NCBI GenBank assembly: GCA_021161465.1
Contig: JAGHAM010000010.1
Span: forward strand, 1 to 17,462
DNA from: Candidatus Iainarchaeum sp.
GTDB taxonomy: Archaea; B1Sed10-29; WALL01; JAGHAM01
Length of the DNA stretch: 17,462 nucleotides
Direction: 5' to 3'
Positions within the stretch are counted from its first letter, which is position 1. Every line of letters starts with the position of its first letter. Of the stretch, positions 2,670-15,574 are shown one piece after another. The notes beneath the pieces are model-generated. The model was given only the letters and a program-made list of their open reading frames with translations. It had not been told where the DNA came from and made no database searches. The position numbers and the translations under genes are program-made.

Positions 2670-2694
2670 TAATGAGCACATGACTAAACTCTCT

Positions 2695-2700
2695 GAGGTT
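2695..2700 (+). promoter_or_regulatory. Ribosome binding site that sets the topA start
   Basis: GAGGTT lies just before the ATG at 2704 and matches the archaeal anti-Shine-Dalgarno sequence. The in-frame upstream ATG at 2680 has no comparable site. The protein read from 2704 also starts right at the Toprim fold, which supports the shorter form. Confidence 0.55.
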
Positions 2701-2703
2701 TTC

Positions 2704-4740
2704 ATGAGATTGATAATTGCTGAGAAGCAGATAGCGGCTAGGAGGATAGCTGGAATTCTATCAAAGGGTACAGCCAAAGTCGTGAAAGAGGGCAAGGTAC
2801 AGGTCTATACTATTGATGGGGATACTCTTGTCCTTCCGCTCCGTGGCCATATACTTAATGTTGACTACCCACGGGAGTATAACAACTGGGTGTCCACTAA
2901 CTTACATTCTCTGGTTTATGCCCCACTTGAATACAAAACAAGCGAGCCTTCTGTGGTTAGGGTTTTGAGGAAATACGCACCAAAGGCAGATGAGATTGTG
3001 GTGAGCACTGATTTCGATACCGAAGGGGAGTCGATAGGCCGTGAGGCTGTGAAGGTAATCTCAGGAAAAAACAAACACATATCAGTCAAGCGGGTGAGAT
3101 TCAGTGCGATAACACAAGAGGATGTCCTAAAGGCCTTTGAGGAGCTGCATGAGCTTGATGACAATCTTGCTGACTCAGCAGACGCCAGGAGGGAGATAGA
3201 CCTCATATGGGGGGCGGTGCTTACCCGTTTTGTTTCCTTGTCATCTGGCAGGCTTGGCTCCAGGTTCTTATCTGTTGGAAGGGTTCAAACACCGACGCTC
3301 GCGCTCATCGTTAACTTGGAGAAGGAACGAATGGCATTCAAGCCAAAGCCTTTCTGGGTTTTAACAGGAATATTCTTCAAGGAGTTTGAATTCAAGGCTT
3401 TGCATGAAGAGGGAAAGTTCTGGGATGGTGAGAAAGCCAAAAGTGTCTTCGATAAGGTAAAGAATGAGAAGAAAGGGACCATACTCAGCGTGACTTCAAG
3501 GAAGAAGAAAGCCAATCCCCCGATACCCTTCAACACCACTGGGTTTTTAAGGGCAGCTGCGAACATGGGATTCTCACCTGCAAGGGCCATGGCAGTTGCT
3601 GAAACACTTTATATGCGTGGTTTTATATCGTATCCTAGGACGGACAACACTGTTTATCCTTCTTCTATAAGCCTTAAGGAACTTTTGAAAAAGTTTTTGG
3701 CTCACCCAGAGTTTGGGGGGTATGCCAAATCAATCTTGGCACAGCCAAAAATATCTCCCACGCGGGGGTCAAAGATGACTAAGGACCACCCGCCAATAAT
3801 GCCTGTGGAGCCAGTTGCCAATGGAAAGCTATCGCCACAGGACTGGAGGATTTATTCACTGATAGTTAGGAGATTCTTCGCTACACTGATGCCCCCATGT
3901 GAACTTGAGACTATGAATGTGAAGATAAAGGTGAAGGGTGAAACCTTCGTGGCAAATGGCCAGCTGATTTCAAAACCCGGATGGCTGGGTGCATATCCTT
4001 ACTCAAAGTTTAAGGAAACACGGTTGCCGAGGCTTAACGAGGGTGAAGAAATAGAAGCAAGGAATTTTGTTCTGGACGCGAAGGAAACACAGCCCCCCAC
4101 CAGATATACACCTTCATCACTGCTTAAGGAGATGGAAGCGCTGAATCTTGGGACCAAGAGCACACGACCTGAAATCATAAGAAAGCTGCAGCAAAGGCAG
4201 TATATACGTGGCAGCCGTTCCTACGAGCCAACACATATAGGTATCGCACTTATTGAGGCACTTGAGGAGCATGCATCGGAGATAACCAAGCCAGATATGA
4301 CAGCGAAGCTTGAAACAGAAATGGAACTAATACAGGGAGGAAAGAAAGCCAAGAGCATTGTAGTTGATGATTCGAGGAATATGCTCGGGTCTGTTCTGGA
4401 GAAACTATCTGCCAACCATGATGGAATAGGGAGTTCACTTAGGGAGGCGGCAGGTAGGACGGAGACGTTTGGAAAGTGCGAGTGTGGCGGCGAGCTTAGG
4501 CTGATAGTGTCAAAGAAGACACGTAAACGTTTCGTTGGTTGTTCTAACTACAGTAAGGGCTGTAGAGTCTCCTACCCGCTCCCACAGCATGGTACTATCA
4601 CACCAACAAACAAAATCTGCCCTGTCTGCGGCGCGCCAATCATAAAAGTCCGATATAAGAGGACCTATGAAATGTGCCTGAACCCCCATTGTGAAACCAA
4701 AAAGGACTGGGGCAAGAAAAAACCCAAAAAGCTTAAATAA
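2704..4740 (+). CDS. topA: DNA topoisomerase I (type IA)
   Basis: Relaxes negatively supercoiled DNA by cutting and rejoining one strand through a tyrosine 5'-phosphate link. With the start at 2704 it has 678 residues. The Toprim domain opens at once (LIIAEKQIAARRI, with the catalytic Glu) and carries the metal-binding motif TDFDTEGES with Asp103, Asp105 and Glu107. The catalytic Tyr310 sits in GFISYPRTDNT. The C-terminus has two four-cysteine zinc fingers: Cys592/594/613/620 and Cys639/642/658/663. It lacks a helicase domain, so it is not reverse gyrase. An alternative ATG at 2680 adds eight residues with no family match. It lies 34 bases after pyrG on the same strand and is probably part of the same transcript. 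Confidence 0.96.
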   Translation: MRLIIAEKQIAARRIAGILSKGTAKVVKEGKVQVYTIDGDTLVLPLRGHILNVDYPREYNNWVSTNLHSLVYAPLEYKTSEPSVVRVLRKYAPKADEIVVSTDFDTEGESIGREAVKVISGKNKHISVKRVRFSAITQEDVLKAFEELHELDDNLADSADARREIDLIWGAVLTRFVSLSSGRLGSRFLSVGRVQTPTLALIVNLEKERMAFKPKPFWVLTGIFFKEFEFKALHEEGKFWDGEKAKSVFDKVKNEKKGTILSVTSRKKKANPPIPFNTTGFLRAAANMGFSPARAMAVAETLYMRGFISYPRTDNTVYPSSISLKELLKKFLAHPEFGGYAKSILAQPKISPTRGSKMTKDHPPIMPVEPVANGKLSPQDWRIYSLIVRRFFATLMPPCELETMNVKIKVKGETFVANGQLISKPGWLGAYPYSKFKETRLPRLNEGEEIEARNFVLDAKETQPPTRYTPSSLLKEMEALNLGTKSTRPEIIRKLQQRQYIRGSRSYEPTHIGIALIEALEEHASEITKPDMTAKLETEMELIQGGKKAKSIVVDDSRNMLGSVLEKLSANHDGIGSSLREAAGRTETFGKCECGGELRLIVSKKTRKRFVGCSNYSKGCRVSYPLPQHGTITPTNKICPVCGAPIIKVRYKRTYEMCLNPHCETKKDWGKKKPKKLK

Positions 4741-4765: not shown

Positions 4766-6748
4766 ATGAAACGTTATTACATTTCTATTTGTATTTTACT
4801 GCTCTCACAGCTAGCATTATCCATTGGATTGACTGTGCAAACACCGCAAAATATCAGCTACAACACAAGTTCTCTTACATTCCAGGTGGATGCTGATGAG
4901 AACCTGACTTCTATGGAGTATGTGTTGGATAACGGAACAGCGGTTGAGATGAATTCAACGGATAACCTCACTTGGGAGGCGAACGTTAATCTTGGTGAAG
5001 GTAGCCATACAGTTGTCTTTGAGGCAAATGCAACTAACGAAAGCGTAAATGAAACTGTTTCATTCACAGTTGATTTGACAAGCCCAGCTGTTGTTTTGCT
5101 GTCGCCTGGTGAGAACACTACAGCCAACGGAAGCGCAACCCTAGCTTACAAGGTAATTGATGCCTATCCCAAAGCCTGTTACCTCTACGTTAACTCAAGC
5201 CTGATAGATGAGAACAACTCCCCACAAAATAACTCAAACTACACAGTGACCTATGCTGTGAATGCTACTGGCGTCTACTACTGGAATGTAACATGCACCG
5301 ATGATGCTAACAATTCAAATGTGTCTGAAACTAGAAGCTTTAACGGCGTTAGTTCCCCGTCAGATGATGCTCCTACCGTGAAGATAAATTATCCATTAAA
5401 CAAAGCTTACCAGGAGGTTTCTGAGCTGCGATTTAACGTCACCGATGACAATGCATCTTTGCTCAGCTGCTCATATAAGATAGATTCCAGAGGCTGGGTT
5501 AATGTTAGCGCCTCAAATGACACAGAAATTACAGTGTATCCTTCAGCAGTTGACGATGAGGGGCAGCACACTTTGCTGGTGAACTGTTCTGATGGCGCGC
5601 TGGTAGGTTCAAGCAGTGTTTCTTTCTCTGTTGACACAACACCTCCTTCTGATTTGAGCATAACCATAAACGATGGCGATTCAACTACTACATCACGTGA
5701 GGTGACTATAACTCTAAATGCAAAAGGTGCATCACAGTGCGCGTTCAGCAACGACAGCTCGTCATGGACTGACTGGTCTTCTGTGTCACTTGGTGATAAG
5801 TCCTATGTGCTTCCACCTGGCGATGGCGTCAAGACCATATACTATAAATGCAGGGACAACACAGAGCCACCTAATGTTTCTCCTACAGTTTCAGATTCAA
5901 TAACGCTAAAACTTTGCGGTAATGGCATAATCGATGAGGGGGAAGTTTGTGATGGGTTGAACGTAACTTATGGATATTACTGCTCCTCTGATTGTAAGCA
6001 TAAATATTACAGGGAGCAATCTTACTCTACCCCACAAGGCGACGAAGCAAATGGCGCTGATCAGCCAGAGCAACCAGAGAAATACAATATAACTATGAAT
6101 GCAACTGTGTCATCGGATAAAACAGTTCTAGGCGGCATGTTTAACAATTCTGAAAGAGTTCTCAATTACTCTGATGGGATATGCCATTACATCCATTTCG
6201 AAGTGCAACTGAATGGCTCGTCTGGAGGGGCAATGCTCACGTTTTTGGGGTCATATACAGGTAGTGATAACCTAAGCAATTTGGTCATAATATTGAAGGT
6301 TCCAAAAAGTTTTGCGGCCAGCTCGGATGACATAAGCGTTTCAACGGATGGCACGGTTACCGTTTTGGAGAAGGACCCAGCCTATGCAATACAATTTTCC
6401 AACATCACCAAAGACTCATCTTTCAGCGTAATTTTTGATGTGAATGATGGTGTAAACCTAACAGATGTCAAGGAGGACTTGGATAGCCCAGAGGTGCTGG
6501 CTGAGCCAGCCATTGCAACACAGGACAAACAGGAGAATGTGGCCTTGCCAGGTGAAGTTACCAACAACACATCAGGAAACATTGAGAAGAGGGCAACACT
6601 GCCAGCTACGGGATTGGTTCTGATTGGTGGTGTGGCTGTTACCGTGGTGGCACTCTCTCTAGTTATGATTGTTGCCATAATTGCTGTTTACTTCTATGTG
6701 AAAAAGCGAGGCAGGGGCCTCAAACTTGGTCCACGGGTTCGTTTGTGA
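4766..6748 (+). CDS. Membrane-anchored, probably glycosylated surface protein with LPATG-like C-terminal tail
   Basis: A 660-residue exported protein. Residues 1-20 form a signal peptide (basic start, hydrophobic core, ALS). Residues about 22-382 look like four beta-sandwich (Ig/cadherin-like) repeats, each ending near a paired-Cys or Ser-Phe-Ser-Val strand, as in archaeal adhesins and S-layer-type proteins. A cysteine-rich segment at 384-410 starts CGNGIIDEGEVCDG, a motif of DUF4215-like secreted proteins. Residues about 438-570 resemble the domain that often precedes the anchor in archaeal surface proteins (KVPKSFA... DPAYAIQFSNI). More than thirty N-x-S/T sequons suggest dense N-glycosylation. 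The end is LPATG at 612-616, a hydrophobic helix at 617-644, and a basic tail KKRGRG. It converges with the ABC permease with one base between the stops. Ligand and exact role are unknown. Confidence 0.85.
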   Translation: MKRYYISICILLLSQLALSIGLTVQTPQNISYNTSSLTFQVDADENLTSMEYVLDNGTAVEMNSTDNLTWEANVNLGEGSHTVVFEANATNESVNETVSFTVDLTSPAVVLLSPGENTTANGSATLAYKVIDAYPKACYLYVNSSLIDENNSPQNNSNYTVTYAVNATGVYYWNVTCTDDANNSNVSETRSFNGVSSPSDDAPTVKINYPLNKAYQEVSELRFNVTDDNASLLSCSYKIDSRGWVNVSASNDTEITVYPSAVDDEGQHTLLVNCSDGALVGSSSVSFSVDTTPPSDLSITINDGDSTTTSREVTITLNAKGASQCAFSNDSSSWTDWSSVSLGDKSYVLPPGDGVKTIYYKCRDNTEPPNVSPTVSDSITLKLCGNGIIDEGEVCDGLNVTYGYYCSSDCKHKYYREQSYSTPQGDEANGADQPEQPEKYNITMNATVSSDKTVLGGMFNNSERVLNYSDGICHYIHFEVQLNGSSGGAMLTFLGSYTGSDNLSNLVIILKVPKSFAASSDDISVSTDGTVTVLEKDPAYAIQFSNITKDSSFSVIFDVNDGVNLTDVKEDLDSPEVLAEPAIATQDKQENVALPGEVTNNTSGNIEKRATLPATGLVLIGGVAVTVVALSLVMIVAIIAVYFYVKKRGRGLKLGPRVRL

Positions 6749-6749
6749 T

Positions 6750-8696
6750 TTATGCTTTCTTCAGGAGCCATGTTGATAAAACCAAACCCACTACAACCCA
6801 GACAGATAGGTAGCTGAATGAAAGAAGGATAGTGACTAGATTGTTTAGGCTGATATGATACATTGCGAAAGTATTGAGTGCATTCACTGCTTGGGTTAGC
6901 GGGCTTAATGTACCCATCAATCTAACGACCGGCGTCATGAATTCTAGTGGGAAGAACACTCCAGTCAAGAACATAAGTGGTATACATATGACAAGTGAGG
7001 CCAGAATTGCCGTGTTCTCTGATTTCGACAACAGGGCATTCACCATGCCCACTAACGAGAACACTATTGTCATAGTTGTTATAATCAGTATGGCGGGTAA
7101 CATATTGATGTTTATCATGACACCAAATAACAGCACAGATATGGAAATCAGGAACAACGTCTGAACAAGGACAACGAACCAGGTCACGATAATCTTACTT
7201 GCGATTATTGATATAGGCCTGGTTGGACTTGTCAATATCCTCCTTAGTGTGCCCCTCTCTTTCTCCTTGATTAAAGTTGAAGCGGAGAAAAGTATTGCCA
7301 CAAGCATTGCAACTATGGATATTATAGTCGGGAAGAAGGCGTCGATATACCTAAAATTTGGGAATAACAATTTGAATTTTGTGCTTAGTGGTGTTATCAC
7401 GTCTTCTGGTTTCTTACCTACCAGGCTTAGCAAGTGTTTCCTTGATGCCTCAGCGTCAGACATTAGTGAATCTATATTTGAGCTCATTCCAGTTATGGTT
7501 TTTCTTGATTTACTCAGGCTTTCCTGCGCGCTGTTTCTGGTTTCCGTTAGCTCTTTAAGCATATTTTCTGTTTCTTCAAGCTCGGCTGATGTTTGGTCTA
7601 TTTCTGATGTGTCACTTAGTTGCGCCTTTAAATTGGTGAGTTTGTTTCTGGCACTTGATAATGTCACTCTTGCTGATGAGATTTCAGACTGTAGCTCTGA
7701 GATGTCTGCCCGGTGTGTGTTTATATCTGAAATTATATTGTCCAGGTCATTTAGTATGCTCCCAACATTGCCACAAAGTGAGACCCATCTTTGGACTATG
7801 AATTCTCCAGAGCCTTGGAATTCCGGGTCGTTGGCGTGGTCGCAGTAGCCATTGGTATAAGCGTTTTGCAGGTCTTCCCTGGTTTGGATTAAGTCGTTTT
7901 GAGTATTGACTAAGTCCGTATCAGCTTTTGAAAGTGTGCTGCTTGCAGAATTTAGGTTTGAGTTTAGGTCGTCTATGTCACTTATGTAGTCGTCTACTTC
8001 ACTTTGGTATTCGGACATTCTAGCTTTTAACTGGGACACTCTTGCTTTATCGTTTTGTATGTTGGAGTTCAACTTATCTACATCAATTTTCTGCAAGCCT
8101 GAGTTAATGTTATCCATGTCGCTTAGAAGCGCATTCATCTCATGTTTGCTTTCATCAAGCCTCCCTTCAAGGTTTTCAAGGTTTTGGCTCATATTGTTTA
8201 GGCTGTCCCACACTTTTGATATAAACTGCCCGCCAAGGTTCTTGCTGAGCCTCGCTGTCATACCATCTATGATAGAAGTTGTCACGAATGAAACTTGGGG
8301 TATACCATTATTGACATATACATCAATATCCTGGTGTTCGCCATTAGTTACACTTTCTTGGAACCCTTTTGGTATGACTACCTCTGCTGTTATCCCACCT
8401 TCCTCAAGCGATTTTCTAAATTCGTTTTTGCACCTGGGGTCCCCGATGGCCACTTTTACAACATCAAAGTTCTCGTTTATTGAGCTTGAAATGCTACTTG
8501 ACAGGTTGCTACCATCCAAATCGCATATGCCTACCTTAACTGCTGACAGTTGTTGTTTGTCCCAGCTGGTTAATGGGGCGAATATCAACCCTATGAGGAA
8601 CATCATGATTATCGGCCCAGCTGTGATTAGAAAAACCGTCTTAGGATTTCTCACTATAATCCTTAAGTCTTTTAGTATGAGGTTGAAGAGGTTCAT
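6750..8696 (-). CDS. ABC-2 type exporter permease with large extracellular coiled-coil domain
   Basis: The membrane subunit of an ABC exporter, paired with the ATPase upstream. The chosen ATG (8696) overlaps the ATPase stop as ATGA and follows GAGGAG; a GTG at 8705 would add three residues. Numbered from that GTG, one helix lies at about 22-44, then a roughly 410-residue outer region, then five helices between about 457 and 648. The classic ABC-2 cytoplasmic motif EKERGTLRRILTSP follows the second helix. The outer region holds two long heptad-rich stretches (about 165-285 and 315-425) joined by a loop bounded by Cys288 and Cys311, probably an antiparallel coiled-coil hairpin. This layout is like YhgE/Pip (phage infection protein) permeases, larger than simple DrrB-type ones. 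The substrate cannot be read from sequence; lipids, drugs or a surface polymer or protein are possible. Confidence 0.88.
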   Translation of the reverse strand: MNLFNLILKDLRIIVRNPKTVFLITAGPIIMMFLIGLIFAPLTSWDKQQLSAVKVGICDLDGSNLSSSISSSINENFDVVKVAIGDPRCKNEFRKSLEEGGITAEVVIPKGFQESVTNGEHQDIDVYVNNGIPQVSFVTTSIIDGMTARLSKNLGGQFISKVWDSLNNMSQNLENLEGRLDESKHEMNALLSDMDNINSGLQKIDVDKLNSNIQNDKARVSQLKARMSEYQSEVDDYISDIDDLNSNLNSASSTLSKADTDLVNTQNDLIQTREDLQNAYTNGYCDHANDPEFQGSGEFIVQRWVSLCGNVGSILNDLDNIISDINTHRADISELQSEISSARVTLSSARNKLTNLKAQLSDTSEIDQTSAELEETENMLKELTETRNSAQESLSKSRKTITGMSSNIDSLMSDAEASRKHLLSLVGKKPEDVITPLSTKFKLLFPNFRYIDAFFPTIISIVAMLVAILFSASTLIKEKERGTLRRILTSPTRPISIIASKIIVTWFVVLVQTLFLISISVLLFGVMININMLPAILIITTMTIVFSLVGMVNALLSKSENTAILASLVICIPLMFLTGVFFPLEFMTPVVRLMGTLSPLTQAVNALNTFAMYHISLNNLVTILLSFSYLSVWVVVGLVLSTWLLKKA

Positions 8697-9664
8697 TTTT
8701 TCCACTCCTCAACTTTTGGAATCCCACTAAGTTTTTTGTTACTTTTTTTGATTTCTGCGGTTCCACCTGTTAATATCACAAAAGCATCCTCCAACGTGGC
8801 TTTTCTAACATTCACATTTGTAAGTTCCTCACCTATCTTTTGTGAGTATTTTATTATTTTTGGCAAGATGGCTTCAGCTTCGAAAGTTTTGATACGCAAG
8901 GTCTTGTACACAATGTCTACACTAGTTACATCTGGAATTATCTCTGAGAATTTCAGGAGCGCGTCGAGTTGGCCTGATTTGGTTTCAATTTCTATTACAT
9001 CTTCTCCAGCAGAATCTCTTAATTCATCAGGAGAGCCGATAGCTGCAACAACACCTTTGGTAATTATCGCAACCCGGTCGCAAAGCATATCTGCTTCGTC
9101 CATGTAATGTGTGGTTATTATAATGGTTACCCCTCTGTTATGTATATCTCTAATTATTTTCCATACAAGGCGCCTGGATTCTGGGTCGAGTCCAACAGTC
9201 GGTTCATCCATAATTAAAAGCTTTGGCTCGTGCATTATAGAGCAGCCAATGTTGAGCCTTTTCCTCATGCCGCCAGACAGGGTTTTGGTTAGGGCGTTTT
9301 TCTTGTTCTTAAGCCCAAGCATGGTTATTAACTGATTTGATACCTTGTTTAGTTTGTCTTTTGAGACGCCATACAAGCTTCCAAAAAACATAAGATTTTC
9401 TTTTACTGTTAGTTCATTGTAAAGGCTGTCATCTTGCGGGACTATCCCAATTAGTTTTCTATCAACAGGTTTGCCAAACAGGGAGACAGTTCCCCCATTG
9501 CTCTTTACTGTTCCTGGGATTATCTTGATTAAAGTGCTTTTTCCCGCCCCGTTTGGACCAAGCAAACCAAACAATTCTCCCTCGTGCACAGAAAAGGATA
9601 CTCCATTGAGGGCATGCAATTTGCCGTAGTCTTTTCTTAAGTCCTTTACCACCAGTGCTTCCAT
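8693..9664 (-). CDS. ABC transporter ATP-binding protein (DrrA/CcmA-like)
   Basis: The cytoplasmic ATPase that powers the permease encoded directly downstream. From ATG 9664 it has 323 residues and a complete nucleotide-binding domain: Walker A GPNGAGKST at 36-44, Q-loop VPQDD with Gln77, signature LSGGMRKR at 129-136, Walker B LLIMDE ending at Asp153/Glu154, D-loop GLD, and His186 in THYMDEAD. The extra C-terminal part after about residue 215 is the DUF4162-like regulatory region common in drug and lipid exporters. A TTG one codon upstream is a less likely start. The stop overlaps the permease ATG by four bases, so the pair is a two-gene operon with probable translational coupling. It is divergent from DUF211. 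Confidence 0.93.
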   Translation of the reverse strand: MEALVVKDLRKDYGKLHALNGVSFSVHEGELFGLLGPNGAGKSTLIKIIPGTVKSNGGTVSLFGKPVDRKLIGIVPQDDSLYNELTVKENLMFFGSLYGVSKDKLNKVSNQLITMLGLKNKKNALTKTLSGGMRKRLNIGCSIMHEPKLLIMDEPTVGLDPESRRLVWKIIRDIHNRGVTIIITTHYMDEADMLCDRVAIITKGVVAAIGSPDELRDSAGEDVIEIETKSGQLDALLKFSEIIPDVTSVDIVYKTLRIKTFEAEAILPKIIKYSQKIGEELTNVNVRKATLEDAFVILTGGTAEIKKSNKKLSGIPKVEEWKK

Positions 9665-9670
9665 CAATCA

Positions 9671-10002: not shown

Positions 10003-10525
10003 CTTGATAGATAATTTTGTTCGTGGTTTGGTCGATGGCTCACTGTCAACGCTTGGCGTTGTTATAGGCGCGTCCACCGGTTCTGTCCAGATTATACTGG
10101 CTGCTGGTCTCGGTGGAACAGTGGCCAATGGAATTTCAAATATACTTGGTGCCTTCTCGGCTGAAAAAGCCGTAGCCTACGAGGAACTGAATGGAATAGA
10201 GAAAGCGATGGTCAAGAAAAACCTGAAAGGTTCCATCCTACAGAGGACGGTTGAAGGTGAGGTTGTAAAGGCAGGATTTGTAGATGGCGGGGCTACTATA
10301 GTTGGTGGGCTGATTCCTGTGATGCCATTCATTCTCCTGCCGTCGCAAGTGGCCTTGCCAGTATCTATAGCTTTGGTGCTGGTCCTTTTGTTCTTCCTTG
10401 GCGTTTATTTAGGTAAAGTCTCGAAGGAGAACCTTATCTTTTCTGGGACGAAGATGGTCATATACTCCATCGTCATAGCTGTTTTGGCTTATGCAATCCA
10501 GGCAGTCATAATCCCAACTACGTGA
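9992..10525 (+). CDS. VIT1/CCC1-like (TIGR00267-type) transporter, probable iron/manganese
   Basis: A 177-residue membrane protein of the VIT1/CCC1 superfamily, whose characterised members move Fe2+ or Mn2+. The first helix has the family motif FVRGLVDGSLSTLGVVIGAS. Five helices are predicted at about 15-35, 36-56, 100-118, 120-142 and 150-173. The stretch between helices 2 and 3 (57-97) has fewer acidic residues than the metal-binding domain of plant VIT1, as is usual in the short archaeal branch, so metal transport is inferred from family only. ATG 9992 overlaps the DUF211 end by 11 bases. TTG 10004, after GAGGGAT, is an alternative start that removes the overlap. The stop overlaps the GTG that opens the NFACT-R frame. 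Confidence 0.83.
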   Translation: MRDNLIDNFVRGLVDGSLSTLGVVIGASTGSVQIILAAGLGGTVANGISNILGAFSAEKAVAYEELNGIEKAMVKKNLKGSILQRTVEGEVVKAGFVDGGATIVGGLIPVMPFILLPSQVALPVSIALVLVLLFFLGVYLGKVSKENLIFSGTKMVIYSIVIAVLAYAIQAVIIPTT

Positions 10526-11373
10526 CTGGAATAAAGCATTTTAACTCTGCCGTTCAGAATGTATTCATGGAGCTTGAGCTTGACTTAACCAAAAGCGTGA
10601 CAGAGAATGCTAACTACTTCTATCAGCTTTCAAAGAAGTCCAAGAAGAAACTTGAGGGCTTGAAAAAAGCAATAGAGGAAACGAAGCGCGAGCTTGCGAG
10701 GAGAGAGGCCCTGGAGGAAAAGCCAAAGAAGCTTAGGAAGAAGCGCGAGCGCGACTGGTACGAGAAATACCACTGGTTCTTCACCTCAGATGGGTTCCTA
10801 GTTATAGCTGGGAGGGATGTGAAAACCAATACCGAGATTGTGAGGAAACACATGCAGAAAGGGGACCTATACTTCCACGCCGACATACACGGCGCGCCTT
10901 CTACGATAATAAAAGCAGAGGGAAAGGAGATTCCAGAGAGGAGTAAGCGTGAGGCTGCCGCGTTTGCAGGAGCGTTCTCAAAAGCGTTCTCAGCTGGGCT
11001 GCCTGTTGTTGATGTTTATGCTGTTAGGCCAGAGCAGGTCAAGACAGCTGCAAAGCCAGGAGAATTCTTGCCTAAGGGAGCTTTCGTCATAGAGGGCAAG
11101 CGGGAATGGTTCAAAAAGTCCTCGACAGTTGTGGCTGTCAGTTTCGACAAGGAAAAGAACAGGGTAGTGGCAGGACCCCCAGAAGCCATAGCAGGAAAGA
11201 GGCTCCTAGTTGGTCCGGGTGGGGTTCCGAAAGGAGAGCTCGCCAGAAAAGTGAAACATGAACTAGAGCAGCTTTACAAGACCGATATCGATGTTAATGA
11301 GGTCCTTCAGTTGCTACCATCTGGAGATGGACAGATACTAAAACTTTCAGAAAGGGAGGCGAAGGGCAGATGA
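10522..11373 (+). CDS. NFACT-R domain protein lacking NFACT-N (Rqc2/NEMF/RqcH-related)
   Basis: Contains the C-terminal half of Rqc2/NEMF/RqcH proteins, which bind the large ribosomal subunit and act on stalled nascent chains. Numbered from GTG 10522, residues 16-80 are a charged helical region (ELDLTKSVTENANYFYQ, then Lys/Glu-rich coiled coil). Residues about 82-200 form NFACT-R: YHWFFTSDGFLVIAGRD at 83-99 and DLYFHADIHGAPSTIIK at 115-131, matching the family. The C-terminal part ends with a short Gly-rich loop and helix. Full archaeal homologues are roughly 600-700 residues with an NFACT-N domain first; here it is absent and the preceding DNA is the VIT1 gene. GTG 10522 overlaps the VIT1 stop, while ATG 10567 would begin directly at the conserved helical region (268 residues). 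It lies inside a four-gene operon. Confidence 0.85.
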   Translation: MTGIKHFNSAVQNVFMELELDLTKSVTENANYFYQLSKKSKKKLEGLKKAIEETKRELARREALEEKPKKLRKKRERDWYEKYHWFFTSDGFLVIAGRDVKTNTEIVRKHMQKGDLYFHADIHGAPSTIIKAEGKEIPERSKREAAAFAGAFSKAFSAGLPVVDVYAVRPEQVKTAAKPGEFLPKGAFVIEGKREWFKKSSTVVAVSFDKEKNRVVAGPPEAIAGKRLLVGPGGVPKGELARKVKHELEQLYKTDIDVNEVLQLLPSGDGQILKLSEREAKGR

Positions 11374-11546
11374 AAAGCTTCTGGACTCTTGTGAGAGAGC
11401 CCAAGTTTGGTTTGTTCCTGGCAATGGCATTTCTCATATCTGGTTATGACTTGGCTTACGGCTCCAAGCTGATTGGTGCAATCTTCCTCGCGTTGATTTT
11501 TGGAAGTATTGCAATCAATCTCTGGATGACCAGGGGAAAGCGGTAG
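11370..11546 (+). CDS. Small two-helix membrane protein (58 residues)
   Basis: An unrecognised small protein that starts MKSFWTLVREPKFG and ends MTRGKR. Two hydrophobic stretches, about residues 14-30 and 34-52, are likely membrane helices, with basic residues at both ends that would place both termini in the cytoplasm. Its ATG overlaps the NFACT-R stop as ATGA, and GGGAGG lies about ten bases before it, so both coupling and a strong ribosome binding site support translation. It closes the DUF211 operon; the next gene is on the other strand with only two bases between. No family is recognised and function is unknown. Confidence 0.7.
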   Translation: MKSFWTLVREPKFGLFLAMAFLISGYDLAYGSKLIGAIFLALIFGSIAINLWMTRGKR

Positions 11547-12469: not shown

Positions 12470-13117
12470 TTAGATGACGCCTTTTCCAACAATCTTGAAC
12501 TCAACTTCCTTGCCAGATTTCAGAAACTTGTGCTTTATCAGCTTGGCTTTTCTAGGTTCTTTTGTTATTTCTACGATAACCTTTGAACCGTATTTAAGCG
12601 TATCCCCACCTACAGGCTCAACGTGGCCGTTATCCATGTTTGTGTATACCTGGTTTGTTATAAGCACTGCTAGGTCTTTCTTCCTTGCAAGGTTCAGTAA
12701 CTCTCCCACCTGCCTGCCAAGTTCTTGGCTTAGTGGCCTGGGATTCTCCTGGTCCATTTCAAGGCGATAGTGGTAAACTATAGAGTCAACCACCACAAGC
12801 CCTATGTCATCAAGCTCCCACAAGCTTGAGATAATCTTTCCCTGCTCTCCAAAGCTCCCTGGTTCGAAAAGTATTATGCTGCTTAGGATTTTTTCCTTGT
12901 CCTTCCCTACCATCTGTTCAAGCCGCTTTTCTGAGAACCCACTCTCAGGGTCTATAAAGACAGCGCGCTTGCCCATCTTCACGGCGTTTATGCTGGCCTG
13001 TAGCGCTATGTTGGTTTTTCCAGAGCCAGGTGGCCCATATACCTGGGTTATGGTCCTTGCCCTTATTCCACCACCCATTAACTCATCAATACTGCAGTTT
13101 AGAGGAATACAGTTCAT
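12470..13117 (-). CDS. radB: DNA repair and recombination protein RadB
   Basis: A RadA/RecA paralogue found in euryarchaea and relatives, thought to help RadA-driven strand exchange. The protein has 215 residues, typical for RadB, and consists of the RecA core alone without the N-terminal helix-hairpin-helix domain of RadA. It starts IPLNCSIDELMGGGI, carries Walker A GPPGSGKT at 28-35, Walker B LVVVD at 107-111, the LGRQVGELLNLARKKDLAVLITNQVY segment, and a C-terminal basic strand-rich part. The ATG at 13117 matches the family start closely. AAGGG lies a few bases upstream. It is divergent from cdc48 and convergent with DUF1684. Confidence 0.94.
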   Translation of the reverse strand: MNCIPLNCSIDELMGGGIRARTITQVYGPPGSGKTNIALQASINAVKMGKRAVFIDPESGFSEKRLEQMVGKDKEKILSSIILFEPGSFGEQGKIISSLWELDDIGLVVVDSIVYHYRLEMDQENPRPLSQELGRQVGELLNLARKKDLAVLITNQVYTNMDNGHVEPVGGDTLKYGSKVIVEITKEPRKAKLIKHKFLKSGKEVEFKIVGKGVI

Positions 13118-13125
13118 AATACCCT

Positions 13126-15574
<2,449 letters not shown>

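Follow-up and report, generated by a model that had tools for sequence, protein, structure and literature searches.

Genes and features of the locus

The window analysed here is a whole archaeal contig (Candidatus Iainarchaeum sp.) of 17,462 nucleotides. It carries a gene assigned to the C-terminal part of an RqcH-family protein, here called the R half, with the neighbours listed below.

2680..4740, + strand: topoisomerase I (TopA); its place upstream of the R half is conserved
10522..10566, + strand: 45 bases 5′ of ATG 10567, read by the GTG frame; probably outside the family protein
10567..11373, + strand: predicted C-terminal subunit (R half) of RqcH, 268 aa (profile matches, alignment, model)
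10567..10596, + strand: strand 2 of the M-domain beta-hairpin (MELELDLTKS), start of the R half (alignment to fused RqcH; model)
10597..10716, + strand: second coiled-coil helix, R-half model residues 11-50 (AlphaFold2 model)
10765..11097, + strand: NFACT-R domain (PF05670; structure match)
11098..11370, + strand: NFACT-C-like C-terminal part, as in Rqc2/NEMF (VIA-align, whole model against 8aaf and 9gy4)
11370..11546, + strand: small hydrophobic protein of 58 aa (MKSFWTLVREPKFGLFLAMAFLISGYDLAYGS...); its start and the R-half stop share ATGA
12470..13117, - strand: RadB, conserved neighbour of the R half
13172..15574, + strand: Cdc48-family AAA ATPase; its place downstream of the R half is conserved

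Profile searches matched NFACT-R_1 (PF05670) to the open reading frame at 10522-11373 (+) with an E-value of 2e-30 and found no NFACT-N domain within or beside this frame, in agreement with an earlier sequence-only reading of the window that had described an NFACT-R protein lacking NFACT-N. The NCBIfam model of archaeal RqcH, RqcH_arch (NF041120), aligned with the window gene over model positions 381-644 of 645 only, that is, over its second half. The elements of the R half follow one another in the order hairpin strand 2, second coiled-coil helix, NFACT-R and NFACT-C. The earlier statement that the coiled coil is retained holds for this second helix; the first helix sits in another gene.

Translation from ATG 10567 gives 268 residues with the N terminus MELELDLTKSVTENA. 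The distance from the start of the R half to the N of the ENA motif is 13 residues in 25 of 27 split relatives and 14 in the other two, with starts in the relatives taken as the nearest suitable start codon and six of them set by hand. The start of the R half cannot shift far, because an in-frame stop lies within ten codons 5′ of the chosen start in 16 of 29 R-half frames (in the relative G029 a contig end is found there instead). Starting at GTG 10522 adds 15 residues without counterpart in the relatives, which begin at the equivalent of ATG 10567; these residues had already been described as unlike the family. Because the relatives' starts align at a fixed distance from the ENA motif, the protein probably lacks these 15 residues. 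Judged by this alignment, ATG 10567 is most likely the true start and GTG 10522 a wrong one.

The AlphaFold2 model of the R half had a mean pLDDT of 92.8, with residues 1-10 extended and unpaired. Compared by VIA-align, the model matched yeast Rqc2 (8aaf) with a Z score of 20.9 over model residues 1-259 and NEMF (9gy4) with a Z score of 22.3. The match to CCDC25 had a Z score of 13.7 and covered the NFACT-R part only (model residues 67-205).

A separate gene for the N-terminal half

The window's own genome (976 kb in 40 contigs, 93% complete) contains an NFACT_N match (PF05833; E 7e-36) at G000:C1:12100-12978(-). The corresponding open reading frame, L034:3107-4132(-), encodes 341 aa and lies on a contig other than the window. 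This N half carries NFACT-N, in which the DR motif for tRNA selection is kept, together with HhH and helix 1 of the coiled coil, and it closes with a beta strand. At the DR site it carries FDRVV; among the aligned N halves 27 of 29 have DR and two have ER. In the AlphaFold2 model of the N half (mean pLDDT 93.2), NFACT-N and HhH form a body, to which a long helix and a C-terminal tail containing short strands are added; VIA-align matched the model to RqcH 7aqc with a Z score of 25.5 and to RqcH 8s1u as far as residue 381.

A genome search for a separate NFACT-N gene had been proposed with the sequence-only reading, and the gene at G000:C1 bears out its suggestion of a split Rqc2 system. Its other suggestion, a reduced system, and its description of the protein as being without its NFACT-N half did not stand: the N half covers RqcH_arch model positions 1-349 of 645 and the window gene 381-644, and jointly the two genes account for nearly all of RqcH. 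Profile searches for both domains found no full-length or fused NFACT gene in the window's own genome; the presence of a full-length one was what the same reading had named as overturning it. A weak NFACT_N match at G000:C14 spans only model positions 163-238. Other genomes have matches to this range as well, in frames of ∼520-580 aa, and such matches may represent a different protein of the HhH type, for example topoisomerase VI B.

Against RqcH_arch the N half scored 222 bits and the R half 305 bits. Each is below the curated equivalog cut-off of 400 bits, and therefore annotation by NF041120 would not call either one RqcH, which may be why split RqcH has gone unnoticed.

The chain is divided within the M-domain hairpin

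RqcH of B. subtilis has, between its two coiled-coil helices, an M domain with a beta-hairpin that contacts uL11 at the stalk base; recruitment of this RqcH needs uL11, and its DR motif selects tRNA-Ala (PMC8373112). In our alignment, fused archaeal RqcH likewise has a strand, a turn and a strand between the helices (for example GTVVVRLQDREVELDIRRSAAENA in G041). In split genomes the N protein ends in hairpin strand 1 (NPKTRKLKIKLD in the window's own genome) and the R protein opens in strand 2 (MELELDL), and in the split genomes aligned with fused archaeal RqcH the cut lies in the turn of the M-domain hairpin. The exceptions, both at the end of the N half, are G010 and G036, which have a short extra tail. 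The alternating hydrophobic pattern of a strand is kept at both cut termini in nearly all genomes. The median length of the junction (M segment) was 61 residues in split and 71 in fused proteins, on average ∼10 residues shorter; because total junction length is this similar, little sequence was lost at the cut.

One fused RqcH of 589 aa (L124, from G050) has only eight junction residues between the coiled-coil helices in the alignment and seems to be an RqcH without the M hairpin.

A probable two-subunit RqcH, and alternative readings

Profile searches of our genome collection found the N half in all 19 genomes of the window's phylum and the R half in 18 of them. In the remaining genome (G017, an assembly 72% complete) no R half was found, profile search included. 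The N half of G005 was not seen with Pfam and was found by profile (E 1.4e-74). The N and R genes were unlinked in the split genomes examined; in a relative, G037, a single contig of 1.24 Mb carries both, with ∼254 kb between N (862-863 kb) and R (1,117 kb). The comparison of domain layout in close relatives, suggested along with the sequence-only reading, revealed a split layout that recurs across the phylum. Searches of three other archaeal genomes that are 95-98% complete (G028, G031 and G053) yielded neither an NFACT-R match nor an NFACT_N match above the cut-off; loss of RqcH is possible in these three.

We conclude that the archaeal RqcH/Rqc2 is very probably split into two subunits here and that the window gene encodes the C-terminal one, a reading to which we give a probability of about 0.88. 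The shortening of the M segment in the split proteins and the lack of linkage between the two genes may be counted against it. The N and R proteins would pair in trans, each giving one helix to an antiparallel coiled coil and one strand to the M hairpin. By analogy with bacterial structures, a split 50S subunit holding a stalled peptidyl-tRNA would receive the rejoined hairpin at its stalk base, on uL11, and the N subunit would select the tRNA. The heterodimer would thus likely perform the ordinary action of RqcH, tailing on the 50S subunit. The C-terminal tail would target the stalled chain to the proteasome, with the product of the neighbouring Cdc48 gene possibly taking part; the window's own genome encodes Pelota and proteasome subunit genes. 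We found no archaeal RqcH biochemistry confirming tailing in the open-licence literature.

One alternative is that the two halves act apart, the R half as a stand-alone binder of RNA or the 50S subunit, like CCDC25 or Jlp2, and the N half as a tRNA binder, tailing having been lost. Stand-alone NFACT-R proteins do exist, CCDC25 resembles the NFACT-R part of the window protein, and the two genes are unlinked. However, the whole R half, with its C-terminal part and coiled-coil helix, fits Rqc2/NEMF far better, the strand pattern persists at both cut termini, and the two genes are retained together with the DR motif kept. We consider separate action quite improbable.

We rejected the reading that a fused rqcH was broken by a contig end or a frameshift, which has next to no probability: contig ends do interrupt the halves in one relative, G029, but in the window's own genome both genes are internal to their contigs, G037 carries both on its single long contig, the cut point is identical across several phyla, and each gene keeps its own conserved neighbours. 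The assembly break at 10522 that the sequence-only reading had allowed for is not there, since the frame is internal to the 17.4-kb contig and the layout recurs in relatives. An RQC function in decay after loss of NFACT-N, which might be expected in the small genome of a DPANN archaeon, is just as remote and was rejected on the N-half gene at G000:C1, a gene present throughout the phylum with its motifs conserved.

Distribution in archaea and number of origins

The two-gene layout extends beyond the window's phylum. In a wider survey of 80 named archaeal loci, the split form was found in Micrarchaeota, Diapherotrites, Woesearchaeota, Nanoarchaeota and two Altiarchaeota records, and the fused form in Euryarchaeota, TACK, Asgard and Aenigmatarchaeota records and one Woesearchaeota record. 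One Aenigmatarchaeota-like genome (G044) is split, with the same cut. In a tree of the R region, the window's clade of 28 rows was all split (SH-aLRT 96), a Woesearchaeota/Nanoarchaeota group of 13 was also split, and G044 grouped with a fused Aenigmatarchaeota record (SH-aLRT 99). Parsimony required 3 to 5 changes between split and fused forms.

A single split clade was rejected with the N and R regions joined (46 log-likelihood units worse, p-AU 0.003), in a test of 32 rows that were partly chosen after the trees had been seen and with long branches in play. The probable history is therefore repeated origin of this cut, or its loss in some lineages through re-fusion.

Gene neighbourhoods of the two halves

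The order TopA - R - RadB - Cdc48 was found in all 18 R-half genomes of the phylum, as far as the contigs reach, and TopA - R - Cdc48 also occurs in G037, G058, two Diapherotrites loci (L133 and L135) and L174. The 58-aa hydrophobic protein has relatives at the R-half locus in at least four other genomes. The N half, whose neighbourhood in the window's own genome is L034:3107-6262, lies beside a rhomboid protease gene in 18 of 18 phylum genomes with an N locus examined and beside a geranylgeranyl-reductase (GGR) gene in 16 of 18. A VIT1-like gene, which the sequence-only reading had placed where NFACT-N would be expected, is near the R half in only three of the genomes examined and has no bearing on the split.

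Cdc48 is described as part of the yeast RQC complex (PMC5989216). The neighbourhood of the R half and Cdc48 could possibly reflect a link between archaeal RQC and Cdc48, with the proviso that a neighbourhood alone shows no interaction.

Elsewhere in the window, the gene at 6750-8705 (-), as read from its sequence, probably encodes an ABC-2-type membrane protein whose membrane parts are separated by a long stretch of coiled coil; an ABC ATPase gene (8693-9667) adjoins it. The frame at 4766-6748 (+) encodes 660 aa, probably a surface protein: it opens with a signal-like segment, matches a bacterial Ig-like domain weakly and has a hydrophobic stretch at its C-terminal end.

Relation to known systems and significance

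RqcH/Rqc2 proteins are ribosome-rescue factors that tail stalled nascent chains and occur in all three domains of life; the eukaryotic members, Rqc2 and NEMF, act with the ubiquitin ligase Ltn1. The split protein shares with fused archaeal RqcH (NF041120) all domains, their order and the DR motif, but is encoded by two unlinked genes instead of forming one chain. B. subtilis RqcH, yeast Rqc2 and human NEMF have the same folds in both halves and the same positions of the M hairpin and the DR motif, yet each is a single polypeptide. The features that define RqcH/Rqc2/NEMF (NFACT-N with DR, HhH, two coiled-coil helices with the M-hairpin strands, and NFACT-R) are found across the two genes, whose products are predicted to pair; what differs is that the genes lie on different contigs and do not make one polypeptide. 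CCDC25/Jlp2-type proteins also have NFACT-R without NFACT-N on the same chain, whereas the window protein adds an Rqc2-type coiled-coil helix, a C-terminal part and a partner gene. Its match to 8aaf over nearly the whole model, together with that partner, sets it apart from proteins consisting of NFACT-R alone.

Division of an informational gene into two has precedents in DPANN archaea, where split reverse gyrase, tRNA synthetases and Dph1/2 are described (PMC6349945); RqcH is not one of the cases that we found named there. In comparison with those genes, the RqcH split is common to several phyla, always at the same place in the structure. We found no earlier report of split or DPANN RqcH in the open-licence literature, although an earlier mention may exist.

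A broader proposal would be that these archaea have an obligate two-subunit Rqc2 whose M hairpin, with one strand from each protein, couples assembly, uL11 docking and tRNA selection, that the cut was made independently in at least two archaeal lineages, and that the neighbourhood of the R half and Cdc48 points to a connection between RQC and Cdc48 in archaea that involves no ubiquitin ligase. We put this forward tentatively, as a combination rather unlikely to hold in all its parts.

A natural two-part RqcH, cut in the hairpin that in bacteria contacts uL11, would show which interface of the protein can form in trans. It would also offer a ready-made separable system, with tRNA selection on one protein and NFACT-R on the other. 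The split explains why automated annotation could show these archaea as lacking RqcH, and the neighbourhood of the R half suggests that the link between Cdc48 and RQC may predate eukaryotes.
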